Below are positions 5,841-44,754 of a DNA stretch of 64,000 nt, one piece after another. Source of the DNA: a virus; IMG/VR virus record IMGVR_UViG_3300007517_000005, positions 1 through 64,000 of that record, one strand, 5' to 3'. Each line of letters opens with the position of its first letter. The first letter of the stretch is position 1. A model generated the notes under the pieces. That model worked only from the letters and a program-made list of their open reading frames with translations. It made no database searches and was not told the origin of the DNA. Made by a program: the position numbers and the translations under genes.

Positions 5841-6032
5841 TCATAGTAAGGATAGCAAAGTACCATCCACACCACTCTCTATGGACATTAGGTCTACTAA
5901 CCTACCCTGACTGTGGATGGTATTATATACCGTAGCTAACTCCCTCTGGTACTTATCCATAGCACTAGGGGATTCATGGGATAGGGCCGCTGTATCACCA
6001 TCCATCACCATGTAATCATCCGCTCTATACAT
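5841..6032 (-). CDS. Small hypothetical protein
   Basis: A 63-residue acidic/helical protein. ATG at 6032 was chosen because GAGGTGGGGT stands directly before it; a TTG at 6044 would overlap the upstream stop. No family recognised. It lies in a tightly packed run of minus-strand genes. Confidence 0.55.
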   Translation of the reverse strand: MYRADDYMVMDGDTAALSHESPSAMDKYQRELATVYNTIHSQGRLVDLMSIESGVDGTLLSLL

Positions 6033-6040
6033 ACCCCACC

Positions 6041-6592
6041 TCAATTATAAGTATTCTCTATTACTACATTGTGCACTAATACCCCCGCCGTACTACTATA
6101 CCCTAGCTCCCTTGTGAGGTACTGTAAACACAATGACCTATCATCTGTATCCGCTACCTCCTTGTACGTTGACCACTCCTGTGTACCCATCAGAGAGTTG
6201 ATATCCAGTAACCTTACATCACGCTCCGTCACCCCCTGTGATACCAGTGACAGCATGTACGGGGATAGTTGCACCCCATCTACTGCATTCAACATTGATA
6301 CTATCTCAAAGGGTGGTAGTGGGTCATCTAATACCCCCGCGGTAGTTGTATACGACCTCTCCCATTGGTAACTATCCCATGCCCCCAGGATACGCATGAG
6401 AGGTGATGTTACTAATAGGAACATCTGCCCCGCTCTCCTATCGCGGTACTGTGGCCCGTACGTGTACCCCATTAAGTACGTGAATATAGCTTCATGTGTG
6501 GCATTACCCCCTTCCCCTGCTATCAATTGACGTAAGGTGAGTAATGCCTCATGCCCCTCATACGCACATGAATTGTCTGTGTAGTAACCCAT
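6041..6592 (-). CDS. Hypothetical baseplate-region protein
   Basis: A 183-residue protein, largely helical (LLTLRQLIAGEGG, LGAWDSYQWER), with no recognised domain. It begins one base after the M23 peptidase gene ends and its stop lies next to the following small gene, so it is co-transcribed with the cell-wall-hydrolase cluster. Function unknown. Confidence 0.6.
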   Translation of the reverse strand: MGYYTDNSCAYEGHEALLTLRQLIAGEGGNATHEAIFTYLMGYTYGPQYRDRRAGQMFLLVTSPLMRILGAWDSYQWERSYTTTAGVLDDPLPPFEIVSMLNAVDGVQLSPYMLSLVSQGVTERDVRLLDINSLMGTQEWSTYKEVADTDDRSLCLQYLTRELGYSSTAGVLVHNVVIENTYN

Positions 6593-7948
6593 CTAACACT
6601 CCATAACTGAACATGGATCTATACGCTGATTATTATTATCGTACACTTCCAAATGTAAGTGGGGGCCGGTACCTCTGCCAGTATTACCCGTATAACCAAT
6701 AAGTTGCCCTGCCTTTACAGAGGTGCCATCTGCTAAGCCTGCATACCTATCCATGTGTGCGTAGAATGTTTCCCCTATACTACTGCCTGGGTGTTTAACA
6801 GATAACCAATTACCATAACCCGCTTCTACCCCTTTCTCTCCTATCACACCATCTGCAGGCGCATATATTGGGGTACCAATTGGTGTACCGAAGTCTACTC
6901 CTTGGTGCATCCTACCCCAACGCATACCCATTGGTGATGTTAATGGGAATCCCTTGACTGGGTTATTCAGACTGCCTGCCTTTGGGGGTGTTGTATTGCC
7001 TCCCATACTCGGCTTAGAACTACCTGTGTTAGAACTACCTGTGACAGTCGCCACAGTGGTCTTCGTACTCATTGAGCCATACATAGGCGTAGTAGATTGA
7101 CCACCCTCTATTCCTAATGTAGTGACCTTTAATGTACACCCCCTATATATCTTACCCATCTGCATCGTCCAATCCCAGGGCGCAGTCTTCGTACAATCTC
7201 TTGTGTACGTCCCTATGATTACTGAGTTATTATTGGTACCGAGAGAGGCTGGAGCACTACCTCCACCAGGTGATGTACCACTCTTGTCTAGGGTAGTAAA
7301 CCCCTTATCGCCACCTATTGCTGGAGGTGGTAAACCTGATAGAGAACCATTAGTGGGTATACCTATCTTCTGCATAGCATTTACTATCTCATCCATCCTC
7401 CTCTTCTGATCTTCAGAGTGCTTCTCCATATTCGCCCATAACTCGGGGTGCGATACGCCTGTTGGATTAAATCCATCTACACCGACCCCTGCATCCCCTG
7501 CATATATTCGTGCTTGTAATAATGTATCTGGAGTTATACCATTCTTAGCTAAGTAAGGTAGGGTAGGAATAAACCCCTCCCTTGCCATCTTTGGTGATTG
7601 ATTCCATATATCTAGATAACTAGACATCAATAAGGTGTTAGTTGGGTCTAATCCAGCACTACGCATTAGAGGTGCCACCCTCTCCGCCTCCGCTTTTAAT
7701 ATAGGGTGGTACATGCGATCGGCCTCCTCTGGACTTGAACCTTTATAGTAAGCCCCATTGACTGAGTAATTACCTACATTCCAGGCACCATTGCCGGGGT
7801 CTCTATGCCCATCGTAGGGCCTAGTACCATCAGACAGTACTGTAAATCCCCCATCAGCAGTCCTATTACCTTCTGCCATACCAATAATCCTACCTATAGG
7901 ACTATTGATAGCTCCCCCTGCAAATAGTTTATCTATCCCTTCATCCAT
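6593..7948 (-). CDS. Two-domain cell-wall hydrolase: lysozyme-like domain plus M23 endopeptidase
   Basis: A 451-residue protein. Residues ~1-195 are a paralogue of the next gene upstream: IGRIIGMAEGNRTADGG, HRDPGNG..N.G.YS and SSPEEAD, a block I associate with a lysozyme-like domain frequent in cyanobacteria and their phages (the Glu in AEGNR is the likely catalytic acid). After a Gly/Ser/Thr-rich linker, residues ~330-450 form an M23 (LytM-like) zinc peptidase with HQGVDFG (H-x3-D) and HLHLEV. The two activities would cut glycan and peptide bonds of murein during entry. It follows its paralogue by a TAATG overlap. Confidence 0.85.
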   Translation of the reverse strand: MDEGIDKLFAGGAINSPIGRIIGMAEGNRTADGGFTVLSDGTRPYDGHRDPGNGAWNVGNYSVNGAYYKGSSPEEADRMYHPILKAEAERVAPLMRSAGLDPTNTLLMSSYLDIWNQSPKMAREGFIPTLPYLAKNGITPDTLLQARIYAGDAGVGVDGFNPTGVSHPELWANMEKHSEDQKRRMDEIVNAMQKIGIPTNGSLSGLPPPAIGGDKGFTTLDKSGTSPGGGSAPASLGTNNNSVIIGTYTRDCTKTAPWDWTMQMGKIYRGCTLKVTTLGIEGGQSTTPMYGSMSTKTTVATVTGSSNTGSSKPSMGGNTTPPKAGSLNNPVKGFPLTSPMGMRWGRMHQGVDFGTPIGTPIYAPADGVIGEKGVEAGYGNWLSVKHPGSSIGETFYAHMDRYAGLADGTSVKAGQLIGYTGNTGRGTGPHLHLEVYDNNNQRIDPCSVMEC

Positions 7949-8523
7949 TACATAGCCCTTATGTTGCGTATAGCTGTTGCAATAGCCTCTGCCCTACGTG
8001 TCTGGTCAGCTACATGACCTTTCATATCAGTCCATAGACTAGCGTGTGCATAGCCTGTAGGGTTGAAGCCGGGACCTACCCCCTCATCTCCTGCATATAC
8101 CCGTACCATTAAGACTGTCTCCTCCGTGATGCCATTATCTACTAGGTACGGCAATGCACATAAGAACCCATCAATTGCCATCAATGGTGATTGATTCCAC
8201 ACATCTAAATAGTTAGCCATTAATAGGGCATTAGAGCTATCCAACCCCATTGCTTCTATAACAGGGGCAACTCTTATTGCCTCCCCTTGGAGGATCTTAT
8301 GGTACATACTATCTGCATATTCTGGACTACTGCAGCTATAGTACTCACCATTGACTGAGTAATTACCTACATTCCAGGCACCGTTGCCTGGGTCTGTATG
8401 CCCATAATAACTATCAGTTACGCCCCCATCAGCGGTTCGATTACCTTCAGCTAATCCTATGATTAAACCTATGGTGCTATTGAGGGCACCACCCGTGAAT
8501 AATGATTCTACATTATGTGTCAT
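7948..8523 (-). CDS. Lysozyme-like tail hydrolase, single domain
   Basis: A 191-residue paralogue of the N-terminal half of the neighbouring M23 fusion. It shares IGLIIGLAEGNRTADGG, GHTDPGNGAWNVGNYSVNG, WNQSP and the ARVYAGD.G-type segment. The tandem arrangement shows a duplication in which one copy gained, or the other lost, the M23 domain. Likely murein-degrading, acting in the baseplate or as endolysin; the assignment of glycosidase activity is from family memory, not from a solved motif. Confidence 0.7.
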   Translation of the reverse strand: MTHNVESLFTGGALNSTIGLIIGLAEGNRTADGGVTDSYYGHTDPGNGAWNVGNYSVNGEYYSCSSPEYADSMYHKILQGEAIRVAPVIEAMGLDSSNALLMANYLDVWNQSPLMAIDGFLCALPYLVDNGITEETVLMVRVYAGDEGVGPGFNPTGYAHASLWTDMKGHVADQTRRAEAIATAIRNIRAM

Positions 8524-8544: not shown

Positions 8545-9069
8545 CTACTGAACACCTACCCCAAAGTATATCTCTTTCTGTGGCTCCCACTTATTTACAT
8601 CCCTCCACAACCTATCCATATCTACTAAACATGGATCTCTCTCAGTAACTTCAGGGTCTAGTACCTCATCATGCAATACCACCTGTGCCCTCTCTATACC
8701 CATCTGAGATATCAAGTATGACAGCGAGTAATATATCTCTACTGTGTACGGCATAGGCCCTTCTAAACATATAGAGTATGCGAACGGGTCTACACTACCA
8801 TTAACTGATTCCCCTAAGTATGATGATGGGCCGCATGCTGACGCTTTAACGTACGCAGGTACTAGGTACACTATCTCCCCATCCCTACGTATTACGGTAT
8901 GGTAACTGGCCTTAAACCTATCATCTAATGACCATGATAAGGCACCCTCCGCAGGCCCATTAGAGTCATGTAATACTACTATCGGTACGCAAAGGCCCGT
9001 GGATATAGCACTCCCTGGCAGTCGCAGCCCTGCGGCACCTCCCCTAGGGTCGTGACCTACAGCACTCAT
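8545..9069 (-). CDS. N-acetylmuramoyl-L-alanine amidase (Amidase_2/PGRP fold)
   Basis: A 174-residue protein. VVLHDSNGP (His34), ASYHTVIRRDGEIVYLVP, a central SICLEG and VVLHDEVLDP (His133) followed by RDPCLVD (Cys147) reproduce the zinc-site order His-His-Cys of T7-lysozyme-type amidases. The start overlaps the spike gene stop (ATGA). The first ~25 residues, rich in Gly/Ala/Arg/Pro, are encoded by family-A repeats (9008-9066), so the N-terminus is repeat-derived. Expected to cut the amide between N-acetylmuramic acid and L-Ala. Confidence 0.85.
   Translation of the reverse strand: MSAVGHDPRGGAAGLRLPGSAISTGLCVPIVVLHDSNGPAEGALSWSLDDRFKASYHTVIRRDGEIVYLVPAYVKASACGPSSYLGESVNGSVDPFAYSICLEGPMPYTVEIYYSLSYLISQMGIERAQVVLHDEVLDPEVTERDPCLVDMDRLWRDVNKWEPQKEIYFGVGVQ
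9008..9066 (+). repeat. Family-A palindromic repeats, tandem, forming the amidase N-terminus
   Basis: Two adjoining family-A units, read on the plus strand as AGCACTCCCTGGCAGTCGC..., GCGGCACCTCCCCTAGGGTC... and a closing AGCACTC. They occupy the codons between the amidase start and its first conserved strand. Confidence 0.75.
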
Positions 9070-11057
9070 ATAGCTTTAACCTCTACATTCTGTAAGGTAG
9101 TAGGTAATGTTAACTCCTGCTCGGGTGTACTATTGCTAGGGCCGCCCATCTTACCTAGGTTACGTATCTGACTAATGGCCTCCCTTATAGAAGCATCTGA
9201 TACTGCATCCCCTTGCGGCTTGGTACCATCGACACCTCCCTTACCCGTAGTCACTATATACCTACTACCGTCTACCTTAATTACCGCACTATTGGAAGCA
9301 GATGTGGATGTACCTCCTACCTTATTATATTCAACTGACACACCATCTACAGTCCTATTACCATTGAAAGGGGTCTCTGACTTACCCAGTGACTCCCTGA
9401 TAACTATCTGCATAGGGCCCTTGTACTCTATCAAATTACCCATGGCCTTAGTCACATCATTGGTACTACTTCTATTACTCCCCTGGGCTGCCACATTAGG
9501 TGTGTTCAGGTAATTACTTAATGTTGTATTCTCATACCCACGTGCCTTTAACAAGTTACCTATAGCTGCATTTGGGGCGGTAGCGGTACCCTCTCCAGCC
9601 ATCGCCTTCACAAGGGCATTAGTTGCTGTATTATTACTATCCTTTAACATCATCCCCACTAATTGCTGCGGGGTGTATGACTTCCCTAGCATACCCTCTT
9701 CACCCTCCCCTATAGTATCCTTAGTCACTGTAATAGATGCTGGTAAGTCCTTAGATTGTGTCACTAGGTCGGCCACCTGTAACTTAATAGTAGAGGCCAT
9801 TGGTATCGGCTTATCACCACCCTCACTCCATGTATCCCCACCTACCTTACTAATGGTCATAGCATCGGGCGCCTTATCCCCTAGCTTCTCCATTAACTCA
9901 TCTACCTCTATAGCATTCCTGCTACTCTGTGGTGGTTTACCTGTAGTAGACTCCTTGGGTATTGACGTATTCATCTTCTTTTTATCCTTACCCTGATTAG
10001 GTGCCTTATCCTTACCAGGTGTAGTACTGAAAGGCTGTGTTACCTTCTTCTCAGTACTAGCTATACCTGCACTGAGGGCCGCAGATGATGAATTACATGC
10101 CGCACTAGCCTTCCTATAATCCTGTGCTAACTTATATAGTTCATCTAGGTGGTACTTCACACCCATGGGCTCACCCCAATCAAGGGATGTCCTATCTAAC
10201 TGTGATAAGTCTTTAGTGTACCCTACTGGTTTACCCGTATTCCAATTAGACATCACACCCTTATCATCTTTATCAGGGGCCGCTTGTAATGCCTCCTTCA
10301 ATGCCTCGTACCTACTTGCGTAATACTCTGCCTGTTGCGCTAGTGCAGTGCACTTGGTCTCATTCCCTGATAGCGCTAATAGTACTATCTGCCTATCCGC
10401 ATACACAGAGAAGGTATTCTTTGTGTAGTAGACTATATCCCCCCCTAGGGTTCGTATCTCTACAGACCCAGGCTGCGGCCTCTCCTTAGCCTTATCACTC
10501 AACTCCTGCTTATACTCGGAACGACCATACCCTGATATTAAGTTATCCATGGGCGTAATACGTACGTAGTCCTCGGGGCGGGCTACTACATAAGGGAAGC
10601 TAGGGCCTGGGTTACCTACCCTCTCCCCCTGGAACCCTTTATCTACATTGAAGGGCTTCGGTACTCTCCCCTTGAGCATGAAGTTATCATAATCCCCCGA
10701 TAACCTCACACACCCTATAATATACCCCTGATCGAATACACCATCCTTACATAGGACTAGTACTGGTGTACCATCCATTAATGGTTCACGTACACCTGAG
10801 TAATCTAAGCCTGCATTCGGTAGTACCTGGGAACAGTTATGGATTACTACCTCTCCGCCCCCCTCATCGTGCATATCCGTTAAGGATACATTGTATGTGG
10901 AGGTTATATGGTGTGACTCCATGTGTGGGTACCCTATTACCTTCCCCATTAAGAGGCGGGTATAACCACCCCCTACTACTCCCTGCCCATGCCCATACTC
11001 CTGTAACCCATTCATGTTAGGGGGTAGTTCACCGAAGTAGTCCGCTACATTAGCCAT
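9066..11057 (-). CDS. Baseplate spike protein: gp5-type OB fold fused to class-A beta-lactamase-like serine hydrolase
   Basis: About 663 residues; ATG at 11057 is 9 bp from GGGAG, with an alternative ATG at 11063. Residues ~85-125 (GTPVLVLCKDGVFDQGYIIG) look like the OB-fold of gp5/VgrG spikes. The middle (~200-390) is helical and low-complexity. The C-terminal ~270 residues carry the three signatures of penicillin-recognising serine hydrolases in order: SxxK (PMASTIKL, Ser~422), SxN (KDSNNTATNAL, Ser~474) and KxG (YNKVGGTS, Lys~579). Class-A-like enzymes act on beta-lactams or D-Ala-D-Ala peptides; on a spike, a murein peptide role is the natural inference. The stop overlaps the amidase start. 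Confidence 0.85.
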   Translation of the reverse strand: MANVADYFGELPPNMNGLQEYGHGQGVVGGGYTRLLMGKVIGYPHMESHHITSTYNVSLTDMHDEGGGEVVIHNCSQVLPNAGLDYSGVREPLMDGTPVLVLCKDGVFDQGYIIGCVRLSGDYDNFMLKGRVPKPFNVDKGFQGERVGNPGPSFPYVVARPEDYVRITPMDNLISGYGRSEYKQELSDKAKERPQPGSVEIRTLGGDIVYYTKNTFSVYADRQIVLLALSGNETKCTALAQQAEYYASRYEALKEALQAAPDKDDKGVMSNWNTGKPVGYTKDLSQLDRTSLDWGEPMGVKYHLDELYKLAQDYRKASAACNSSSAALSAGIASTEKKVTQPFSTTPGKDKAPNQGKDKKKMNTSIPKESTTGKPPQSSRNAIEVDELMEKLGDKAPDAMTISKVGGDTWSEGGDKPIPMASTIKLQVADLVTQSKDLPASITVTKDTIGEGEEGMLGKSYTPQQLVGMMLKDSNNTATNALVKAMAGEGTATAPNAAIGNLLKARGYENTTLSNYLNTPNVAAQGSNRSSTNDVTKAMGNLIEYKGPMQIVIRESLGKSETPFNGNRTVDGVSVEYNKVGGTSTSASNSAVIKVDGSRYIVTTGKGGVDGTKPQGDAVSDASIREAISQIRNLGKMGGPSNSTPEQELTLPTTLQNVEVKAI

Positions 11058-11079
11058 ATACATTTACTCCCTATAGTTA

Positions 11080-12948
11080 TTAGTAATCAGCTACCGCCCT
11101 TATGCGCGTGGTGAACCCTTCATCACCACCTTGCGTAGATAATATATGTTGTACTAATCGTACCTTATATACAGGTAATACCCACGCAGATGGGTCACTA
11201 CCCTTATTAGTTGTAGGGCCTCTACCTGCGTCTACCTTCACTAGATCCTGTACCTTAAAGGGCTTCTTACCCTTATTGAACTCCATGTCCTCACCATAGG
11301 ACTGTGCTTTTAGTTGCTCCTTCTCTAACTCCTTCAATGACTTAGGGGAGCCGTCCATTATAGATGTACCTTCATCATGTAATACAGTACCCCATACCTT
11401 GATAGCCTCTGATGGGTACAGTGTGGGGTCACCTAGTACTGTTATCTCCACACCTTCTATATCCCTACCCCATAACCTAGCCGCTGATAGGGCCGTCACT
11501 ATTGCACCACCCACAGGGTTACCGTATGTAGATAAGGCCGCATCCTCTATTATCTGTGTGCGGCACGGGGGTGATATCTTCCTCCCCTCAGACCCGAAGC
11601 TAGAGAACTCCATCGTCAATTGTACAGAGTCTAGGAATGATCTATTACCGCCATTAGCCTCTGGATTAATGACCACTAACCTATTGAAGGTGGCTACTGA
11701 ACTACTAGATGAGCGTAGTGATAGTATCATCTGATTGGGTAATGGCTTCTCTATACAGTCCGGTACCGTGCGGAAGAAGTAAGTCCTATACATCCTATGC
11801 TCATCATCAAACCCACTAGTATCCAGTACCCTGGGCCCGAATACATAATCACCATTGATGTGTGAGGCGTAGAAGTCAGTCACTCTCTCCTCATGCGATG
11901 CGAGGTACTGTAGTACTTCTAGTGGGGATCTCTTATATACCTGGAATGTGGCAGCCATGTGTGACTTCTGCAACGGTGGTCTCTGCACCCACACATTCAA
12001 TCTGGGGCTAGCATCGGGTCTCATTATTGAGTGCGTACACTTCCTCAACCATAGCGCTGGATCCTCTTCAGGGGATATATCAGGCCCATCATCTGCATTC
12101 TTATTCTTCCACTCAGGTGCCCTCTTCGTCACATCCCCCGCCCCTACATATGCTGTATATAATAACCCCCCATCTTCTTCCTTACCATTAGCCTTCCTCC
12201 CATCCGTATATGCACCATATACCTTCTTCCAGCAACTAGATGCACCCTTATCATCACCCCCTGTCACGTATAATTGACTCGTGGTGGCACGGTATATGTC
12301 ATATATAATCTCATCCCTCCTACCAGTGGCACCACCTTTACTCCTTGTGTCCTGCTTGGAACCTATTAGTGATGGTATCGATAGTATCTTCGTATCCGCT
12401 AATACCCTCATCCTATCCCTACATTGCAGTATTAATTGCACCCCACCCTCGGCAGTACCTACACAATGTATCGTATCTATGAACCCCCAGAATATAGGGC
12501 AGAGAGGCTTATCAGGGTCGTGCTTCCATCCAGGGCTATCCTTACCAGGTATGAGATCCATCGCCCTCTCATCTAACATCTCAACGCATAGGGGCGTACT
12601 GTGTGAATCAATGTACCCAGCGTAGATGCGTATCTCATCATCCTTTGATAGGTATGGATAATTACCACCCCTATACTTCTTCAGGTTAGGTAGGGGCGGC
12701 AATGTATCTGTACGTGAGGGTATTGATGTAGTCAATGTTATCTGCGCCTGCGATATGTTCCAGTCCCTAACTGTAGTCACTCTCAGACCACGTATTACCC
12801 ACTTCAAGGGCACATCCTCACGTACTGTCTTATTGGTATCACTATACCCATATTGCGTAGTGAATAACACCGGCTGTATATTATTAGCCATAGTTGCAGC
12901 CGTTATCATGGCCGCTGGCACAGGCTGTTGAGTACTGAATGTCTTCAT
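11080..12948 (-). CDS. Baseplate hub protein (gp27/gpD-like)
   Basis: A 622-residue protein just upstream of the spike gene. Features include an N-terminal beta region, a GYIDSHSTP segment, an LEVLQYLASHEERVTDFY-type segment and a late VLGDPTLYPSEAIKV block similar to hub proteins that form the gp27-like trimeric ring. Gene order hub, spike, lysins supports the call. The C-terminal 100 residues are Lys-rich and then beta-structured. It diverges from the macro-domain gene across a 22-bp gap. Confidence 0.75.
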   Translation of the reverse strand: MKTFSTQQPVPAAMITAATMANNIQPVLFTTQYGYSDTNKTVREDVPLKWVIRGLRVTTVRDWNISQAQITLTTSIPSRTDTLPPLPNLKKYRGGNYPYLSKDDEIRIYAGYIDSHSTPLCVEMLDERAMDLIPGKDSPGWKHDPDKPLCPIFWGFIDTIHCVGTAEGGVQLILQCRDRMRVLADTKILSIPSLIGSKQDTRSKGGATGRRDEIIYDIYRATTSQLYVTGGDDKGASSCWKKVYGAYTDGRKANGKEEDGGLLYTAYVGAGDVTKRAPEWKNKNADDGPDISPEEDPALWLRKCTHSIMRPDASPRLNVWVQRPPLQKSHMAATFQVYKRSPLEVLQYLASHEERVTDFYASHINGDYVFGPRVLDTSGFDDEHRMYRTYFFRTVPDCIEKPLPNQMILSLRSSSSSVATFNRLVVINPEANGGNRSFLDSVQLTMEFSSFGSEGRKISPPCRTQIIEDAALSTYGNPVGGAIVTALSAARLWGRDIEGVEITVLGDPTLYPSEAIKVWGTVLHDEGTSIMDGSPKSLKELEKEQLKAQSYGEDMEFNKGKKPFKVQDLVKVDAGRGPTTNKGSDPSAWVLPVYKVRLVQHILSTQGGDEGFTTRIRAVADY

Positions 12949-12970: not shown

Positions 12971-13468
12971 ATGAGAGTCATTACTGGTAACTTACTAGAT
13001 ATAACAGAAGGTACAATAGCACACCAGACTAATTGTATAGGCTTAGCCGGGCCCGTACTCGCTAGATCTATTGCTATTAAGTACCCGGAGTGGGAGGCAG
13101 TATATAAAGCTGTATGTCGTCGCTATACAGTAGATAAACTTATAGGGCAATTACATCTATACCATGCGGCACCTCCCCAAGGGTCGTGGCCCACGGCACT
13201 CCTTGGCAGTCGCAGCCATGCGGCACCTACACTAACCATAGCATCACTGTTCGCACAGAAGGTACCAGGCAGGGGTTTGATGACCGACTATAAAGCACTA
13301 GATTATGCCCTCACCCAACTCAATATGAAATCCTCCCCCACTAATCCCATATACCTACCATATGGGGTAGGGTGTGGGAATGCGGGAGGGGATTGGGGTA
13401 CGGTACAGCAACTCATAGAAGTTAACTGCCCCGATGCTATACTAGTTAAATTACCGTCTAGTACTTGA
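12971..13468 (+). CDS. Macro-domain protein (ADP-ribose binding/hydrolysing), moron-like
   Basis: A 165-residue protein with GNLLDITEGTIAHQTNCIG, an AxSIAxKYP helix, ASLFAQK, a DYKALDYAL helix and YGVGCGNAGGDW, matching the ADP-ribose-1''-phosphate/Poa1-like macro domains. Macro domains remove or bind ADP-ribose and in phages can reverse host ADP-ribosylation-based defence; that role here is inference. Residues ~66-86 (AAPPQGSWPTALLGSRSH) come from two tandem family-A repeats inserted in frame at the middle of the fold. SD AGGAG precedes the ATG. It is on the plus strand inside the minus-strand tail operon. Confidence 0.85.
   Translation: MRVITGNLLDITEGTIAHQTNCIGLAGPVLARSIAIKYPEWEAVYKAVCRRYTVDKLIGQLHLYHAAPPQGSWPTALLGSRSHAAPTLTIASLFAQKVPGRGLMTDYKALDYALTQLNMKSSPTNPIYLPYGVGCGNAGGDWGTVQQLIEVNCPDAILVKLPSST
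13166..13227 (+). repeat. Tandem family-A repeats inside the macro-domain gene
   Basis: Two family-A units with the shared GCGGCACCT / ACGGCACTCC / GCGGCACCT borders lie head to tail and add about 20 codons without breaking the frame. Confidence 0.8.
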
Positions 13469-14466: not shown

Positions 14467-17289
14467 CTAAGAGGTAGGGCGCACTATCTGAAAGTTATCC
14501 ACCATGTACACGTCAATGTAATCGGCAGCACCAATAGGTAATACAGATATACGTATCTCTATCTGGAAGGGGCCAGGTGACATTACCTGTGGGGCGCTAT
14601 AGTTCTGGATGACACCCAACCTATTAAGGTCAGAGAAGTACGCCTCTAAAGCAGTAGATATCTGCCTCACTAACTTAGAGGTCAGGGGCTCACTCTTATA
14701 CCCCTGTAGCATCTGCCATACATCCATACGTACTGAGTCATATGTCCTCCGCTTCACTACTATATCCCCATCTAACGTCTGCCCCGTTAGGAAGAAGTAT
14801 GTATTAAAGCTCTTATCCATGTGTATGACCTCTAACTGTGCATCAGCTAATGGCTGTAACTGTTGCTTAGTAGATATGGGGCGGGTATCTACCTCAGTTA
14901 CACCTATGACGGGGCCACTGCTAGTACGTGCATGTGGTCCTACATAGAATGGGATAAGGGATAACTTACCTGCATAGAATGCGTCAGGTGAGGCGGAGAA
15001 CCTAGGAGCATTAGGTTGCCCTGCATAGGTACACCATCCAGCTACCATTACCCCACGCTTTGATCTATAGCCTTCCGTTACCGCTCGTGCAGCCTCTGGG
15101 CGCACCCTCGGTGGTGCATTCAAGATAGCAATACGTAACCCCTCATACTCAGTTGCTCTCTCTGCCTGCGCTAATAGAGCCATCTTAATGGCATCACTAT
15201 CCCAGATGCCAGGTGTCAGTGTAATGTGCACAGGCTCACCATCCGCTAAGGATATGGCGCGCGTGTAATCTTCTTCCTCTGGTATAGGGCCATCGTAGCC
15301 ATCTTCTAACGATACATTCTGTAAGTATTCAGGGCCCGCTGCTGTTGGGTTCCTGGGATCTTGTGTGCCAGAGTACCTCTCATCAGGTGGCGCTAACCTC
15401 ATAGGGGAACGGTACAAGAGGTTCACGTTGTAGCTATCAGGGTTGAATAGCTTAGGTAAGAATAACCCAGCCACGTGATTAGACCCTACTAGATCCAATA
15501 GATTACCACTAGCATCACTATTTATTAGTGATACATTGAATACCTCGTCCCTAAGAGGGGGGTTGTAGTTATCTTTATTGAGGTCACGCACTGTCACCCT
15601 AAACTTAGTTGTAGTAATTGGGTACACAGTTACACGGAGAGAATTACCCCACGCACCCTCAGACGTAGCATATAGCCTGAATAATGGTGTGCCTGATAGA
15701 TCGTAGAAGTCTCTGTACGCACGTCTAGGCCCATCATAACCACCTGTCATGTACGTCATGTTGTACCAAGTATTATTGGTGAATGACATACCCAATTGAT
15801 TAGCGAACCTAAATATACCTAGGGAATCAAATGTACTAGAGATAGGCTTATCTAACCATACCTCCGCCAGGTTACCCCATAAGGGTACCTCTACCTTCAC
15901 TACCTTTGTACCCGGTTGCAAGAATGTGGGGCTGGGCTCAGGGCCCGATGGATCTTGTGGGTTGGAGAAGTGTAACTGCCCATAGAGGCCACCGCCTTCT
16001 ATCTTCTCGACCCTAGACCCTATCTTAATGTATGTGGCATACTCTACAGGTACGTGGATATACTTCTCCCCTGCGTAGAAGGCTGCCTCCACTATCACCT
16101 CACCATCTGGGTCTACTGCCTCCATCCAGTACCCGAACCTATTACCTAGTGCTCCTTCTAACTCCTCATCCAGGTAGAACATGAAGCCATCATCAGTCTC
16201 TAATCTCTCTACCCTATTCAAGGGATTCTTACCTTGGAGGGCGGCCTCCATATAAGTCACTACTTGGTTGGGGGCTACTCCCTCGGGGACATCTATCTCA
16301 AAGCGTGAGGCATTCAATCTCACAGACCACGCATCACCCACCTCTAAGTTGATCTTCTGATTGGGGCCCAGTGCACCGAAGGTAATGAATACCCCTGCGT
16401 GTACACCAATGGGGCGACCCGCATCAGTGAAGATATTCACAATGAACTCTTCCTGCGCCGGTAACCTATACCATAAGTTAGTATCAATATACTCACCTAG
16501 AGGGTTCATGATCACCCCTAACTGATCAGATGCAGCACCAGATTGGAAGTAATTATACTGCCCCGGGGGTAGGTACCCTAGCGGATTGACATCTGGTAAT
16601 GGGTAAATAGGTACTGGTAATAGACGCGGGCAGATGCGTATCTTACCCGGTACTGCAGGGCCTGGGTAAGGGTCTAACTCTACCCCAGGAGTGGTTGTAT
16701 CTGGTACTGATAGATCATCGGGCACTACATCATACCCATCGGGTATAGTACCATTATCCTCAATCTCATAGCACTCTCCGTGCATCCAATTGATCTCATT
16801 GTAGACACCCTCGGGTACGAATAAGAACTTCACACGCGCGAACCCATCCTCATCTACATTCATTACACGGAACCATAGCCTACCTGAGCAATCACATGTA
16901 GGTACCCCTGAGAATGTAATAGCAGCCTGGCACTGTCTATCAGTTCTATTAACGAATACGCCTGTGTACCGTAAGTGGAGGATTAACTTATTGGGCTTGC
17001 TAGTGATACCATTGAAACGTATCTGCCCCCTCGCAGACTTACCATTACCTAATACCCGTATAAGAGCGAACTCTGATGCACCCTGGTTATAGGCTATTTG
17101 ATACGCCATACTACCGCGCTTGGTATTACTACCGTACGTGGTCGCGAAGTCATCAAACCCACCTATGTAGCGCAATGTGCGTGGCCCCCTGGAGAACTCA
17201 CCCACGATGAGGATGCGGTTCCTTACATTCTGCCCTATGGGTGTGAATGATTGGGTTATCTCTGTGATCTTGATCCGTGGTACTAACAT
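14467..17289 (-). CDS. Tail sheath protein
   Basis: A 940-residue protein with typical sheath ends: N-terminal PRIKITEITQSFTPIG, RILIVGEFSRGP and a YGSNTKRGSMAYQIA segment; C-terminal RSKRGVMVAGWCTY, VKRRTYDSVRMDVWQML and a final strand region around the last 40 residues. The middle (~120-480) is an expanded beta-rich insertion, making it longer than classic ~500-660 residue sheaths. It starts 6 bp after AAGGGA. Forms the contractile outer tube. Confidence 0.9.
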   Translation of the reverse strand: MLVPRIKITEITQSFTPIGQNVRNRILIVGEFSRGPRTLRYIGGFDDFATTYGSNTKRGSMAYQIAYNQGASEFALIRVLGNGKSARGQIRFNGITSKPNKLILHLRYTGVFVNRTDRQCQAAITFSGVPTCDCSGRLWFRVMNVDEDGFARVKFLFVPEGVYNEINWMHGECYEIEDNGTIPDGYDVVPDDLSVPDTTTPGVELDPYPGPAVPGKIRICPRLLPVPIYPLPDVNPLGYLPPGQYNYFQSGAASDQLGVIMNPLGEYIDTNLWYRLPAQEEFIVNIFTDAGRPIGVHAGVFITFGALGPNQKINLEVGDAWSVRLNASRFEIDVPEGVAPNQVVTYMEAALQGKNPLNRVERLETDDGFMFYLDEELEGALGNRFGYWMEAVDPDGEVIVEAAFYAGEKYIHVPVEYATYIKIGSRVEKIEGGGLYGQLHFSNPQDPSGPEPSPTFLQPGTKVVKVEVPLWGNLAEVWLDKPISSTFDSLGIFRFANQLGMSFTNNTWYNMTYMTGGYDGPRRAYRDFYDLSGTPLFRLYATSEGAWGNSLRVTVYPITTTKFRVTVRDLNKDNYNPPLRDEVFNVSLINSDASGNLLDLVGSNHVAGLFLPKLFNPDSYNVNLLYRSPMRLAPPDERYSGTQDPRNPTAAGPEYLQNVSLEDGYDGPIPEEEDYTRAISLADGEPVHITLTPGIWDSDAIKMALLAQAERATEYEGLRIAILNAPPRVRPEAARAVTEGYRSKRGVMVAGWCTYAGQPNAPRFSASPDAFYAGKLSLIPFYVGPHARTSSGPVIGVTEVDTRPISTKQQLQPLADAQLEVIHMDKSFNTYFFLTGQTLDGDIVVKRRTYDSVRMDVWQMLQGYKSEPLTSKLVRQISTALEAYFSDLNRLGVIQNYSAPQVMSPGPFQIEIRISVLPIGAADYIDVYMVDNFQIVRPTS

Positions 17290-28339: not shown

Positions 28340-31300
28340 TTATCCTACCACGTTTACTTCCCAATCATCCCCTTCTGAGTAATCACTCTCACCACTTGGG
28401 TATGCACTGAAGTCCGTAGTGGGATTATCCATCACATACGATACCTCTATAGCCGCTCTCATAGGGTCTCCATCATCATCCATTACCGTACCCTCACCCA
28501 CTTGCGCTAATCTCTCCCCTATCATATCCTGCCTCTTTGATTCTGTTTCTGACATACTCCTCACGAAGCTCTCTACAATGCCTAGTGATGGTATTAAGTT
28601 AGTGCCATGCACTGCTACCTCCCCCCCTATTACGGATGTGAGCATCCCTAGTACAGATGATAGTACTGCACCTCCTAATGTATTGGAGGCCGCCTTCCAC
28701 CCCTTGTACCTATCTACATCCATAGGTCTATCTACACGTAAGGGGCTAAACTTAGATAGTATCCTCTCCGCACCACCCATAATGGCAGGGGCTATTACCG
28801 CTGCACCCATAAAGAACCCTACCTCTCTACCAACCCATCTCCTTACCCACTCCCCCTCATCCTGTGAACCCTTAGACTCCGCATGTGCCATCCTCGCTCT
28901 AAATGATTGCCCTAGTACTGACGCCACACCTGGTCTACCCATTTGCGAGTACCCTAACATCGATACCGTCCCACCCACTACCTGCCCTATTGTATTCTCG
29001 TTGATAGAGCCGGTCGCCATTAGTGAACCTAAGAGTGTGAGCCCTGCACCCAATACCATGTCATTCATGTCGTGCATCCTACCTACGGCATCGTGCATCT
29101 CCTGACTATGCCTTGCATGACTAGCCGCCTGAGCTCCTGGATTCATGCCCGTTAGTACTGCCCTAGGGGGATTTGATGTTACTGCCTGTGCCCTCAAGGC
29201 AGCACTAATTATAGGCGTAGACGCATCGCCCATCTCTCTACCCCGTATCTCTCTGGTCTCCGCCTGGTGCAGTGGATCTCTTGCCTCTACTATGGCCTCT
29301 TGTGACGCCTGCTGCGCTGTCATACCCTTGGATACCTTCTGCTCGGATAGTCTCCGGATGGTCGCTGATAATACTTCAGCTTCTGGTAATGATGCCCCTA
29401 ACGCACTACTGATTGTGCCAGCCCATGATTGATCTGAGTGCATGGTCTGACTATTGAACGCATCCCCTATATTATCTAGTAATCGTCTCCTCTGTCCTGT
29501 TGATGTAGCCTCTAATGCTACATCCAAGAACCCCATGGGGGAGCTATGCTCACCTATCACCTCCCCCGCGCTATTCCTTACATTGAACTTCCTATAACTC
29601 TCCCCCTCCCCTAATGGGTCATCATGGTACCCTACACGTATACCCCCATCCTTCTTATTGATGACCCTTACGCCTACACCACTCACACTATTCAACTCAA
29701 GGAAGCTCCTACCACCTTGAGTCTGACCTAGTACCTGCTCCATACCTGTACTATCGCCCATGAAGTCCTTCATCACGGTCATGTAATGTGAGGCAGCCTC
29801 TGGGTCTATGCCATTCATACTACTATTCATTAGGGCTATCGTTATATCTGTATCCGCTAACTCCGTTGATATGCCTGACATTGTCTGAGACCTACCGCCC
29901 CCTAACTTCCCTGCCTTCTTCCTCAATGTCTCTAATGTGACGAACTGATTCAATCCCTCCCCTACACTACCGAAGATAGGGTCTGTCTGTTTCCTCCCTT
30001 CATCTACTAACGCCAGCATTAAGGCCTTGTTCTTGCTCGAAGCTTCATCCCACCACTCATTCGCATCCTTTGATAGGGCCGCCCCTATGTCAGCCTTCAA
30101 TGAGGGGTCGGATATGAACTTCCTATCCATAGCCTCATCCCGATCCACATCCTCCCCAACCCCTAAGAAGCCACGTATGCCACTCCATATTGTATCTAGG
30201 AATGGTTGATTGTCTTTTGACCCTAGTTCGTAGCGGAAGGCAGTAATCGTAGCTCTCATGTCCCTCGCTACTTTGTACCTGACTACATCCCCAATAGTCC
30301 CATCTGATACATCCACACCCCTATCGCGCATCTCACTACTCAAGCGCGTCATCTCCTCATTAGATGAGATCTTGTACTCCTTACTCAAAAATGCTATAGA
30401 ACTATCATCTATGCCTGTCAGGGGCTTACCATATACATTATTACTTGATGTCTCTATCAGGGTACTTAACTGCATGTATGACCGTAATCCAGGGCCAGGG
30501 CCTAACTTACCCGCCATCTCACTCAAGACTGCCCTCGCACTCGCATCATCCCCCTGGTCAATGTACTTCTGGTACTCCCCATGTGTCTTCTGTAAATCAC
30601 CTAATACATCCGTGTCCCCCTTGAATTTGATACTATCCCTTAGTAGCTGCTGTGCACTCTTCATGAATGCCTGCAATGACTCCGCTCTCTTCGCCTCTAT
30701 ATGTACCTGATTGAATGTCCCCTCTACATCATCTGCCATAGTGGTACCAGCATAGTACTCCTTCATACTATCCATCACGGTACTGCCACCCTCACCGCCT
30801 AGTACATGCGATAGAGCTATTAAGGGACTATCGCGGAATAAGGTACCCACTAGGGCATTGTATGACTTACCTAATATGTCACCGCCCGCTACCCCTAATG
30901 TCTTCGTTAACATGTCATATACTGTGGGGCTCATTGATGCACCACTACCCATACCCATATACTTACTGTAATTGGATACTGCTACCTCTGATGATGATAG
31001 TTGGGCCGCACCCTCCATTAGGCTACTACTTACATCCTGCTCAGGCTTAGCTAAGATAGACTCCATCATCTTAGTTATTACGTCTGCTCTCAATGATGGG
31101 TTGTTTGTTAATAGCTCCCTGAAGTGATTATCAGACACATCCTTCAACATCACTGACGTATCTATATTGGAGGTAGATAATGCCTCACTTATTGATGCAC
31201 CCTGCTTGAGTGATGATAATGCACTTCTGAAGTCCTCTGTTGCATGTATAGACTCCATCGTCGCATGTAACGCCATGATGTTATTATCGTGCGCTACCCC

Positions 31301-34300
31301 TTGTACCCCACCGAATAATCCCCTCGATTGCTGTAAGTACGTAGGCAGTACCTCCATTGATATGGGCTTCTCCTGGTACTCACTCATGAATGCTTGCGAT
31401 ACCCCTAAGTAAGATGACACCTCCTTCCTCAGTAAAGGGTCATATGTCTGCGCTAATGTATCCCTCACCGAGGACATCTCCGCATCTATAGCTTTGATCC
31501 TCATGCCTATCTCCTCATTAGCTATGCGGTACTCATCACTCGCTAACCAATACTCATCTAAGTACTCACCCCCATTACTACTCGCCTGCTTCCTCAGCAT
31601 CCCCTGCCTTAATGTATTACTCTTCACCCTATCCGTTAGCCTCTGCCTATCATTCATGGCAGTCCCTATCTTGGAGAAGATTACCGTGAAGTTATCACCA
31701 TCATAATCTAGTAACCCCAGTGCATGACCTGACATCACGGGCATTAACCCCAGGCTCTTATTGCGTCTCTCATCTAACTGTGACATCCCCTGACTCTCTA
31801 AATACACATTCAAGTTCTTCACTAACCCCACGGCTGTAAATTGCTGTCTCTGTAACTCCGTAGAACCGAATGGGGCTGACCTGAAGACTGTTGCCTGCAA
31901 TACATCAGATGTATTTAGAGATACCTGTAATGACTCCATACGCGCTAAGGGGGCCTCAATAGATGTCCACTCACCCCTACCCTTATGTAATGTATCTAAG
32001 GCGCTACTTAACTCCCTTAACTCTGTGCGGCTTGTCTCTATTAACTCCTTCTGGGAAGTGTCGTAACCATATGCACTATCTACTCTCTCAAGTGATACCA
32101 ATAGTTCATCTATAGATACCTTAGATCTATCCACAGAGTCCGCTAATAACTCCCTACTCTCACCCATCCCTAATCCCTGGAATAGACTCCTATCTATCCT
32201 ATACGTCTCTATACGCCCTCGTACACTACCCTGCCACTGCCCCATACTATCTGCATTGATAGCCCTCCCTAACTGTTCTATGAGGTTCTTATTAGGGACT
32301 ACCTTCTCACCCGCTGCCATTGCCTGCTCACGGTTAGCGTACTCCTCACCACCTACCATGAATGATGACATCGTCTCCGTACGTGAGAACAACCCCTCCC
32401 ACTCCTTCGTGGCGTTCTCTCTTCTTCTAGGGTCTGCTGCTATCTGCTGTCTCTCTACTATCTCTCTTAACCTCCCTGTCGGGAGTGCTAACGACCTTGT
32501 TACCTTATCCCTCTGCTTACCCGTCCACGATGACTCTACTGTCTCGTACTTCCTATAATAATTACCATCCCCTGACTCTGATACACGTAATTGACTATCG
32601 CCCCCTACACTGTATCTCTTGAACCAAGTACCGCCCTCTTCGTTATAACTACTGCTAGTGTTGAATGCTGTATCGAACTGCCTGCGTTGGTACTCAAGCT
32701 GCGATGTAACATTACCCTCCGCCTCCCTTAACCTAGTCAGTGTTCCCTTCTTTAATGTTATATCCCCGTACGTGCCAGTAAAGGCCACACTCTGCTCTAG
32801 AACGCGCGATAACCTCCCTAATGGTGGTAACTCATTAGCTGTTGTCTCTATTAATAAGGATGGTGTAATAGACGTATATGGGTCTATACGGTATGGCTTA
32901 TCTTTACTAGATACGTACTGGTCATCTAACGCTAACCTAGCACGCCTCTCACTACCCTCGTATACCTTCTTACTCCTTAACCATGACTCTAATGCTGGGG
33001 GGTTTACTGTCCTCTCGTAACTGTTCTCCCATACACCACTCGCACTACGCAAGACCTGCTCCCCTAGCTCTACTGCAAAGTAATTACCCTCATTACCCTC
33101 TCGTGCACCTACTATATCTCTATAACTCCTCACACCTGGTAAGTTCGGGATATCTTCTGTACCCACACGGGAACGGGTATAATCCTTTATCTCCTGCGTT
33201 ATACGGTCTGCTTGTACCTGGCTCACACCTATACCAGACCTTGTCTCCATTAGGGTAGATACATGGTTAGCATCTTGTATAGTCCATAACCGGGCCGCTA
33301 TATATTCCTTCTGTAGTAAAGGGTTCCTTGTTATGTACTCTACATCCCCTTGCACTGTACGCAATAACATTGAGCCCTTCTCCCCCATACCACCCATTAA
33401 GGCATCCCTCTCCGCTTTCAACAATCGCATGCTATCCCTTGATGCAGGATCGGATAAGGAGCGTGTTACCTCCTCTAATCTCTGACGGCGTAGAGAATCA
33501 CGTACATCCCCTGCACCACGCATACCTTCCTCGGGGGCTAAAAACATCCCCTGTGGTAATCCGAATGTGGCGGCGAATGTACCCACAAACCCACGTAATC
33601 TCGCCTCCATCTTCAAGCGTGTACCCGTTGATGCCTCCGCTATCCTCTCCACAATCCCATACGCGGTCACATAATAGTTCTGTAGTGCTTTCACCTCATC
33701 TGCTGTGAACTCTACAGACCCCGCCCCTGTTGCCTTTACCTTCGATAAGGTAGAGAATATATTACCTATTGCAGTTCCTGGACTGAATGCAGATGCTAGT
33801 GTTAGTGTACTCCTCACTAATTCATCTGTATACGATCCATACTGGATACCATATGTTCTTAAGTCCTCTGCACTGGGTAGGTAGAAACTAGTACCTGGTG
33901 ATACATCGTCGAACCTCGCAATGATGCGCCCTGACTCCGATGGCATACTATCGAATACCACCGCTGGTAAATGATATATACCTCTCTCATGCGACATCTC
34001 TCTGGCTATAGCTTCTGCCTCCCCCACACCAAATGCCTTAGTCGCTAGTAACTCATATCTCCTACCCACATCCTGTATGGCTGATAGGGATGTACTATAC
34101 TCACCCCTCCACATAGAACCTAACAATGATTGCGTGTGTATACTACTGGGATTACTAGCCTCGAATAATAATGTACTCAACTCACTCCCTAATGTGCGTA
34201 CATCCCCCACACCACTTGCTAGGGCAGTCACTCTCTCTTCAATAGCTATCTGTACCGCCCCACCATAATCTTTATATGACTTCTTCAGGGCCGTTATATC

Positions 34301-37300
34301 CTCCATCCCTGAACCATATATCCCTAAGTTCCTGGACATCGCTAACGGGGTGAATAACTGGGGGTCGAATACTGAACGTATCTCTACATCCTCTATGCCC
34401 TGTAACTTCAACATCATCATCGTGGCCGTCTCTGTAGTGGCGGTCGATACCAACATATTCGCTAACACTACACGTAACTTCGATAAGTCCCCACCCTCTG
34501 TGAACTCCTTCGCTATCTGCGTGAATGGACGCACTAAGTCAGCATTCTGTAAGGCACCAGTGCCTTTAGTACCTATGGGCTCCTTCGATGATGAATACGC
34601 TAAGTCCATCTTCAAGTACACTGATGCTACAGACTGTGATAACCCCCTCACCATAGCCTGTGCTAACTCTTCTTCAGGGGCCTTACTTAAACCCACAAGA
34701 CTCATTAACTGTTCTATTACATCGGGGCGGTAACTTACATCTCCAGGTGTCACCCTCTCATCCCTCATTAACTGCCGCGTTATATCTAAGGCTGTTAATA
34801 TAGTGGCCGCCTGCCTCTCTATTGCATTATCTACATTCAAGTACTTACTACTCTTCGTACCCTTAGACATCAACTCACTCAGCGTGGACTTGATACCTGT
34901 ACCCCCTGACTTATCTGGGGCACCACTCAAGGCTGATAACATCTGCTCGTTTGTTATATCCATTAACGAGTACATTGACGCAGGGTTCCATGCTTTATCT
35001 AATGATGATAGTAATTCCCTACTCCCTGCCTCGGGGCCCTGTCTCAGACCTATCTGCAGCGCGGTCTCCTTGTACACCCCAGGCATCTCACGAAGTGCTT
35101 CATATAAAGCTGATGATAATGCCCCTTTATCTGGTGTGTCTATGTAATTACTACCGAAGGCTAATAGCATCGCTACTGCAGCCTCTCTCTCACTCATGGC
35201 ATCTAATACAATATTCGCCTTACCCTCGCGTAGTAATGTACCGCCATGCTCTAGTGAGAATGACTTCAGGTTCGATGGGTTCACTAACCCGAATATATCC
35301 TTACTCTCTATCTCCCCTAATACATTATCTGATGGCTTCCCCTTCCTTAAGGCCGCTATATTCTCGAAGTACGCTGATGTTAAGAATACCGCCACACCTT
35401 TGAATAACGATGTACCCGAATCTACACGGCTACCACCACTCGGGGACTTAGCCTGCATGTACGTTAACTCATAGAATAACTGGTTCCCACCTCCGCCTGG
35501 TAAAGCCCTCATTGATAATAGGTACTCTTTACTATCCTCCCCAGGCCTTACCCAGCCCGTCGTAGTGATAGTAGATGCAGATGAACGACCTATCTCCCTA
35601 CCCTTATTCTCAATCATTGCCTCTAGCACAGATCTCTGACCCCTATCATCTATTACCTCTTTCGGGAGCGCTAATATGTCCCCTTCCGTTAGTGATGATA
35701 GTTCGTGGTTCGTCACTGCACCAGTTATATGGTTCACCACTATTACCTTTTGTAGTGACTCATCGAACATCACCACATCCCTGGCACTAGCTAATTCCTG
35801 ACCCCCAGCATCCGCCCTAGTCCACGCTACACCTAACATGGATGCCTTTACCTTCTTCGTGGTAGTACGTAAGTTCCCTTCCATAGGACTAGCATCGGGG
35901 TTAGCGTAGAAGTAATCTGAGTACATCCCCGCCATCTGTACCAATGCGAATGATGGGGAGGATGTGAACCCCTTCATACCCGTACTCATTACATCTGATG
36001 ATATCGCCCTCATACGCACTAACTCATGCCCTATACCACCCTCATTGAAGTCCTCGATATCTAATCCCAACTCCATTAGGGAAGACTCGTATGCCTCCAT
36101 TATTGCTACCTGCTCACCACTCATCATACCGCGCACACTCATGGCAAAGGATGCAGCTAATACTACATCTTGCTCAGGCATTATCCTATCTACATACTGC
36201 TCCACCTGACGGGGCGTCCATGTGGGGTTCTTGCGTACTAACTTCTCCCTTAATCTCTGCCCTATATCCCTACCATACTCTCTCGCACTAGCTAAGAAGT
36301 CCGGGCCCGTACCATCCATTGCTGTAGTTAAGGCCTGCGTTAACTTACCCATGCCCCTCTGACCTTGGGTGTTCTTTAATCTCTGTGGTATCTGCGCTAC
36401 CTTCCCCTTACCACCAAACATATATGTCAGTAACTCATCACTGCCTTGCTCATCAAATACTGCTAGGGCCCGCACCTTCGCCTTATCTGATAAGGTAGAT
36501 GATAATATATCCTCCCTTGTAGTAGAGAATCCCACACCCATTGAGGATGTCACCCTATGGTGCATTATCGTATCTACTGCTGTACCTCTCTGCCCGAATA
36601 GTGTGAGACCTGTATCTGTAGACGTACCTTCATTATTAGTCCCACCCGCTACATTACGGTGTAGTCCGGGCGTACCTATTGATGAATAAGGACTGATTGC
36701 TCTAGGTATTGCTATAGCCCTTGTTGCTAGTGAATGGAACGGTGTCCCTTCTAAGTTCTGTAGTACCTCTTGGTACTCATTCGTTGCACTATACATCGGT
36801 AGTCTGAACCACCCCTGAGCACCGCTATACTGTGACACCTGCGCCGATAATAAGAAGGGCTCCATCATCGCCCCTGACATCTTATTGATGCCCGATGATA
36901 GCATCTCCATATATGACGCATTAGATTGCGCTACAGTTGCTTGGACTACCGCTAACCTGAAGTCCGCACTGGTGTCTAGTAATGGTAATAACATATCAAC
37001 TATGTCACTACTATAACTGCCCGCCCTCTTTATCCTCGCCTTACTTAAGTCTCCATCTGATATAGGTACTGATGCCCTAGCTTCTACATCAGACTTATTC
37101 TCTAACTTGTACTGCTCATACTCGGATGCCGTGTACCCATATGACATTGATGATAGTAAGTGCTGTACATTATCTATTATTCCCCCTAGCTCATTAGATA
37201 CATCCTTACCTCTTACCTCCTGACCAGTCCATGCGCGTGCCTTCTGTAGGGCGCCATCTACATCCCCCCTCAATCTCCTCGCTAATGTATCCGATAGGTT

Positions 37301-40027: not shown

Positions 40028-40065
40028 CTTCACTCTCCTACTACCTATACCATCGCAAGACTATT

Positions 40066-43699: not shown

Positions 43700-44087
43700 A
43701 TGAAAAGAGCACTCGTTGAGAGACATACTGTACTCCTCGCTACAGTCGGCAGTATCGCATATGGTCTGACATTATCTACCTCCGATAAGGATATCAAAGG
43801 CATCTGCATCGCACCCGCTGAATATTACTACGGTCTCAAACAGTTCGAGCAGAAGGATAAAGGCTGGGATGATACAACAGATCTCTCAAGTGGTCTATTC
43901 CCAGTCCTTGATGGTATTAAAGACTGCACTATATATGAGCTCAAGAAGTTCCTCCGCCTGGCCATGAATAATAACCCCATAGTACTGGAGATGTTATGGC
44001 TCAACGATTATGAGTACTTATCTACAATAGGGCGTGCACTTGTTCGTAGTAGACATCTATTCCTATCCAAGAAGGTCAAGCATACCT

Positions 44088-44110
44088 TCCCAAGGGTCGT
44101 AGCCTACGGC
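44088..44110 (+). repeat. Family-A repeat inside the nucleotidyltransferase
   Basis: A 23-bp unit flanked by ACCT at 44084 and 44111; the 27-bp gain adds nine codons between KKVKHT and YIGYAYAQ, which are adjacent in the family as I know it. Confidence 0.85.
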
Positions 44111-44229
44111 ACCTACATAGGCTACGCATACGCACAACTGAAGAAAGTATCTACACATAAGTCATGGTTACTCAACCCCCCTACTGCTAAGCCTCAAGCT
44201 AATGACTATGGCTTAGATGATGCACACCT

Positions 44230-44297
44230 CCCTGTCGGGAGTGCTAACGACCTCCCTGTCGGGAGTGCTAGCAACGCTGTGAGCGTAGCGACTAACG
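44230..44297 (+). repeat. Composite of two family-C repeats, the second split by a family-B insertion
   Basis: Family C at 44230-44249 is bordered by ACCT. A second copy runs 44254-44270 and 44295-44297, also bordered by ACCT. Between its halves lies a 21-bp family-B unit (44271-44291) flanked by CTA, the 24-bp gain preserving the frame. Confidence 0.9.
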
Positions 44298-44650
44298 ACC
44301 TCCCCTTAACTAAGAGTCAGATGGGCTCATTCCTAGAGTACATACTAGTGCTCACTAAAGATAGTATTGAATTCATGGAACCCGTGGCTGAACTCAAGAA
44401 GCTACTACTCGAAGATATAGACCTTACCGCTATCGTTAAACAGAGACCACTAACTACTGATGTTATACCCTATGTGCAGGCATTGACACGTGGTAGTACA
44501 AACTTCATGCAATTACTACAAGCTAGTCAGGCTTATAGGAAGGCTATCTCTGAGTGGGATAACTACCAACAATGGAAGACTAATAGGAACCCAAAGAGGG
44601 CCGCACTTGAAGCACATTGTGGGTTTGACTCTAAACATGCTGTGCATAGT

Positions 44651-44674
44651 GCCGCATGGCTGCGACTGCCAAGG
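44651..44674 (+). repeat. Family-A repeat inside the nucleotidyltransferase
   Basis: A 24-bp unit between AGT at 44648 and AGT at 44675, in frame, encoding SAAWLRLPRS-like residues. Confidence 0.8.
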
Positions 44675-44728
44675 AGTGTACGTCTATTACGTCAAGGTCT
44701 TGAGGTGTTACTACATGGTACCCTCACT

Positions 44729-44754
44729 GTTGATAGGCGTGGTTGATAGGCGTG
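44729..44754 (+). repeat. Exact 13-bp tandem duplication causing a frameshift
   Basis: GTTGATAGGCGTG occurs twice in a row. Removing one copy joins TVDRR to DAGDAPQLL in a single frame. Confidence 0.95.

Follow-up and report, generated by a model that had tools for sequence, protein, structure and literature searches.

The closest described systems each share a part of the arrangement reported here. In T4 gp5 and VgrG proteins, a murein-active or effector domain, such as the tail lysozyme, lies C-terminal to an OB-fold hub, and the gene is found beside those for the tube and sheath. Mycobacteriophage Omega gp39, a virion tail protein, bears beta-lactamase-like DD-carboxypeptidase motifs, which are said to be common to many unrelated phages (PMC3706429). 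The cyanobacterial DD-peptidase PBP-A (TLL2115 of Thermosynechococcus elongatus) has no glutamate in its omega loop; it cleaves both DD-carboxy and DD-endo bonds, with a preference for stem peptides that are amidated (PMC11189452). Among phages, Ma-LMM01 (gp94) and the Microcoleus phage My-WqHQDG (WOL31302.1) encode a hub orthologous to the one described below, in the same gene order.

The stretch of DNA analyzed here, referred to as the window, comprises the first 64,000 nt of the 85.5-kb IMG/VR virus record IMGVR_UViG_3300007517_000005. Its spike gene follows the T4 gp5/VgrG layout of an OB hub with a murein-active or effector module, but it has a PBP-type module in place of the lysozyme, and no beta-helix was identified. 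By description, it also resembles Omega gp39, a virion tail protein that likewise carries a PBP/beta-lactamase-like domain; gp39, however, belongs to a siphovirus, in which it is an FN3-linked minor tail protein and not the OB hub of a contractile tail. An initial annotation of this DNA regarded a penicillin-binding-type domain on a phage spike as a non-standard arrangement. This was overstated: DD-carboxypeptidase/beta-lactamase-like motifs on siphophage tail proteins are known (PMC3706429), and the sister gene had already been deposited as a ‘beta-lactamase enzyme family protein’. Within the phage collection and literature searched, no PBP-type domain ending a contractile-tail OB hub was recorded outside the present lineage; PBP-type domains on phage tails being already known, what is new within that scope is the position of the domain as the terminal module of such a hub.

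The spike is encoded by one uninterrupted frame (Table 1). The initial annotation had placed an OB-fold segment and a serine-hydrolase-type domain in the same chain, a claim that frame errors between the domains would have undone; the ORF contains zero interruptions, domain searches match both segments, and the fusion recurs in relatives. The coordinate 11057 given there corresponds to the second methionine of the ORF, and it is probably the true start, because the nearest homologue begins at the same methionine and AGGGAG lies 9 nt upstream. The three peptides singled out from the translation, PMASTIKL (S424-K427), KDSNNTATNAL (S476-N478), and NKVGGTS (K581-G583), are all present and stand in the canonical SxxK/SxN/KxG order, with 52 residues from serine to serine and 105 from serine to lysine (61 and 97 in PBP-A). 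Judging by the Pfam match to Beta-lactamase2 (PF13354) on residues 409-605, with an E of 3.5e-15 and 56.4 bits against a gathering cut-off of 22, this set of motifs is far beyond chance.

Table 1. Coordinates of the spike gene, its parts, and the neighboring tail and murein genes in the window.
Feature	Position	Strand	Basis or remark
GNRT domain + Peptidase_M23 murein endopeptidase	6593..7948	-	PF01551 1.3e-27
Stand-alone GNRT domain copy, putative enzyme or binding domain	7948..8523	-	60% identity to N-terminus of 6593-7948
Amidase_2 N-acetylmuramoyl-L-alanine amidase	8545..9069	-	PF01510 3.4e-8; start overlaps spike stop (ATGA)
Spike/hub gene: OB hub, coiled region, linker, PBP-A/Beta-lactamase2 domain	9066..11063	-	Single ORF, 665 aa
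PBP-A-type/Beta-lactamase2 domain, residues 388-640	9144..9902	-	PF13354, PBP-A profile, Foldseek
KxG motif K581-V-G583	9315..9323	-	Alignment; deleted in sister phage My-WqHQDG
Omega-loop Leu519, position of class A Glu166/PBP-A Leu158	9507..9509	-	Alignment; PMC11189452
SxN motif S476-N-N478	9630..9638	-	Aligned to PBP-A Ser122-Asn124
SxxK motif S424-T-I-K427	9783..9794	-	Aligned to PBP-A Ser61-Lys64
Low-complexity linker, residues 341-387, module junction	9903..10043	-	pLDDT <50; relatives diverge at equivalent point
gp5/VgrG-like OB-fold hub of the baseplate with the coiled region after it, residues about 30-354	10002..10976	-	phrog_30576, AlphaFold2, Foldseek BFVD
Conserved tail/baseplate protein (LMM01 gp93 family), adjoins hub	11080..12948	-	phrog_34291 1.5e-96
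Tail sheath (contractile tail)	14467..17289	-	phrog_30392 1.8e-128

Several lines of evidence bear on the N-terminal part of the protein. The PHROGs family phrog_30576 (‘baseplate protein’) matches spike residues 85-354 with an E of 1.3e-15, and in a Foldseek search of viral models (BFVD), this part matched proteins labeled ‘baseplate hub subunit and tail lysozyme’ as well as gp5/VgrG OB-fold proteins (2.6e-4 and 3.6e-4); matches to Pfam Phage_base_V were below threshold and were seen in hub orthologues. In the AlphaFold2 model (16 rows), residues 36-118 form OB-type strands, long helices extend to about residue 341, and a disordered linker comes next; the C-terminal triple beta-helix of hubs does not appear in this monomer model, which has helices and linker instead. 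Furthermore, the gene lies near the sheath gene, in the order found in Ma-LMM01. Family, fold, and gene order suggest that the product is the central hub of the contractile tail of a Fukuivirus-like cyanophage, seated under the tube, and the relatives point to a cyanobacterial host. Inside the same tail cluster, an opposite-strand ORF (12971-13468, +) appears macrodomain-like by eye and has no Pfam match; My-WqHQDG also carries an opposite-strand ORF at this place.

The C-terminal domain falls closest to PBP-A. A profile built from five phage domains retrieved PBP-A first from the PDB (1e-12), with class A enzymes at 5e-9, and the top 50 Foldseek matches of the full-length model against the PDB were class A beta-lactamases and PBP-A only. 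The two AlphaFold models are of low to moderate confidence: the domain alone, predicted from five sequences, was weak (pLDDT 50) and fell in the same superfamily by Foldseek, and the full-length prediction from 16 rows reached block mean pLDDT values of 81-91 over residues 431-490, the PBP-type core, at modest overall confidence. For both models, the top matches were all serine beta-lactamases, PBPs, and DD-peptidases.

The description of this domain as class-A beta-lactamase-like is not supported by comparison of the active-site residues. The S70xxK73 pair of class A enzymes is represented by STIK 424-427, and S130-D-N132 by SNN 476-478, with asparagine in place of the aspartate. However, the deacylating Glu166 is replaced by Leu519 in the window and by Leu or Ile in all eight aligned phage domains, K234-[T/S]-G reads KVG in the window and has V, I, W, or A, or is absent, in relatives, and the NCBIfam bla_class_A model scores 26.2 bits against a cut-off of 200. 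The nearest characterized protein, and best solved relative, is the DD-peptidase PBP-A, with which the spike domain shares SxxK, SxN, a leucine at the Glu166 position, and a cyanobacterial setting. It differs from PBP-A in its fusion to a phage hub, in having K-V-G for K-T-G (lysine and glycine of Lys219-Thr-Gly kept, threonine replaced by valine), and at Glu96, the residue of amidated-muropeptide discrimination, where the window has an acidic loop, GEGEEG, shifted in register by one; the exact glutamate is found in L014 only. The threonine or serine of KTG contacts the substrate carboxylate. Scans of genome contigs found no cellular source of the PBP-type domain, plasmids gave a chance-level match only, and PADLOC returned no match.

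The closest database relative of the spike is WOL31302.1, at 73% identity by tblastn and 77% in the full alignment, over 97%, while its remoter orthologues include baseplate proteins from Microcystis phages, Ma-LMM01 among them. When IMG/VR was scanned directly at the protein level, neither the spike nor the domain pair retrieved relatives; scans anchored on the neighboring gp93-like gene retrieved about 40 contigs of the same lineage. Their hubs end in Amidase_2 (L007, L015, L016, L019, L020), Amidase_3 (L008/L009), VanY (L013 and L018, the latter cut by the contig end), VanY plus Beta-lactamase2 (L010/L011, L012, L014), Beta-lactamase2 alone (L057, as in the window and My-WqHQDG), or a GDSL hydrolase (L044), and L061-L070 have short hubs with no recognized enzyme. 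LMM01 gp94 ends in an Amidase_3-like domain (weak, E 0.043), as against the PBP-type domain of the window. All recognized replacements are peptidoglycan enzymes except GDSL. In the gp93 tree, closely related phages carry different modules, and relatives diverge at the point equivalent to the linker of the window. For instance, L018 and L019 share 5604 bp at 99.93% identity before they part at the hub end into VanY and amidase, respectively. The fused amidase of L019 is homologous to a separate amidase encoded downstream of the VanY-PBP-type spike of L014; the latter is homologous to the window amidase, which belongs to the family fused in L019. On these comparisons, the hub C-terminus is a swappable slot, occupied in relatives by murein enzymes.

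A search for similar OB-serine hydrolase fusions found them to be recurrent: the PBP-type domain occurs in six lineages (window/My-WqHQDG, L008/L009, L010/L011, L012, L014, and L057) and is hub-fused in five of the six. In L008/L009, it is encoded by the ORF after the hub, flanked by half of a VanY domain and a polysaccharide deacetylase. There (L009:11141-15131, and also in L008), VanY is split over two ORFs, the hub ending in the first half and Amidase_3, and the next ORF carrying the second half, the PBP-type domain, and the deacetylase in that order; the amidase looks as if it had been inserted into VanY. Next to the gp93 gene, at the expected hub site, L013 has an HNH-family ORF (10877-11782, Pfam) and L017 an ORF that is homing-endonuclease-like by eye (5895-7103).

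Downstream of the spike, the window encodes further candidate murein enzymes (Table 1). The ‘EGNRTADGG’ domain occurs there in tandem paralogues that are 60% identical, one standing alone and one fused to M23, and no Pfam family matched it.

We lean moderately towards a reading in which the spike is a contractile-tail hub carrying a PBP-A-type murein DD-peptidase module, which sometimes drifts to a non-catalytic, probably stem-peptide-binding role. The OB-fold part would form the hub under the tail tube, and the C-terminal cassette would be brought to the murein as the tail penetrates. Since the catalytic motifs of the window are intact, Ser424 is most likely acylated by a stem peptide through its D-Ala4 carbonyl, and the adduct then slowly hydrolyzed; near the entry point, this would sever 4-3 crosslinks or remove terminal D-Ala, aided by the downstream-encoded amidase and M23 peptidase. 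This reading draws on the PF13354 match, the PBP-A-first profile, the Foldseek results, and the active-site residues aligned to PBP-A, together with the murein enzymes that fill the slot in relatives, the six-lineage recurrence, the neighboring murein enzymes, and the dN/dS given below. Against it stand the replacement of the KTG threonine or serine by V, I, W, or A in phage domains and the loss of catalytic motifs in two relatives.

In My-WqHQDG, 77% identical over the protein, a clean in-frame 15-nt deletion has removed KxG, lysine included, where the window has KVG. L057 reads SSIG and SSI and has no KxG lysine, and its PF13354 match is still 5.8e-12. Given these two losses, catalysis is, on sequence grounds, dispensable in some members. 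In L008, SxxK reads SAIQ as against SAIK in the near-identical L009; this is among a few A-to-C differences that may be sequencing errors, and it was set aside as proof of motif loss. Between the window and My-WqHQDG, dN/dS is 0.18 for the pair, with 0.176 (0.10-0.26) for the domain and 0.139 (0.10-0.20) for the hub, the intervals overlapping; these values indicate that the domain is under purifying selection similar to that on the hub. Because it persists in sister phages despite motif loss, stem-peptide binding is probably part of its role even where it is active, and the domain may go on binding such peptides where cutting has been lost.

The same observations feed a largely non-catalytic alternative, somewhat unlikely in our judgment, in which the domain, with its PBP fold and substrate cleft retained, mainly attaches the spike tip to stem peptides, perhaps through a stalled acyl-enzyme, while the amidase and M23 neighbors do the cutting. 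Two of the six lineages have lost motifs but retain the domain, which fits this alternative, as do the dN/dS of 0.18, the additional M23 gene that My-WqHQDG has in excess of the window and, sequencing error permitting, the L008 substitution. It sits poorly with the window, L009, L010/L011, L012, and L014, which keep all three motifs although the L009, L010, L012, and L014 domains are only 27-32% identical to that of the window, a pattern that points to selection for catalysis. A further possibility, still more tentative, is that the hub tip serves as a modular socket for recognizing murein, whose PBP-fold domains chiefly read stem peptides or anchor to them covalently and do less of the cutting, catalysis being dispensable and lost more than once; if so, it would constitute a pseudoenzyme-based grip of a contractile phage on the cell wall.

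That the module has no role specific to murein, being a hitch-hiking tip ornament or what is left of a swapped cassette as it degenerates, is improbable: the slot is swappable and the short hubs of L061-L070 do without a recognized enzyme, but purifying selection on the domain is similar to that on the hub, and the replacements, GDSL excepted, are peptidoglycan enzymes. A true class A beta-lactamase conferring drug resistance on the infected host is hardly credible, for despite the annotation of the sister gene and a sub-threshold NCBIfam match (26 bits vs. 200), the domain has neither Glu166, without which beta-lactam resistance is not expected, nor K[ST]G, is closest to PBP-A, and is fused inside a tail gene cluster. 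Phage genes called ‘beta-lactamase’ on such criteria should not be counted as resistance genes.

If the murein DD-peptidase reading holds, the few enzymes known from contractile-tail spikes would be joined by a host-type PBP DD-peptidase. Moreover, the natural series of intact, KxG-deleted, motif-less, and amidase- or VanY-swapped hubs makes cutting versus binding by tail murein enzymes testable.

Elsewhere in the window, a 3897-aa ORF (28340-40033, -) contains a PLD-like domain (PF13091, 5.6e-7) within its N-terminal 600 residues; LMM01 gp80 is a similarly giant gene, upstream of the head and tail genes. The ORF at 62808-63422 (+) combines an N-terminal hydrophobic segment and an SGDEF motif with a match to GGDEF that falls marginally short of the cut-off (7.8e-5), and that at 43700-44746 (+) is a phage-encoded RlaP-type nucleotidyltransferase (PF10127, 3.3e-14).
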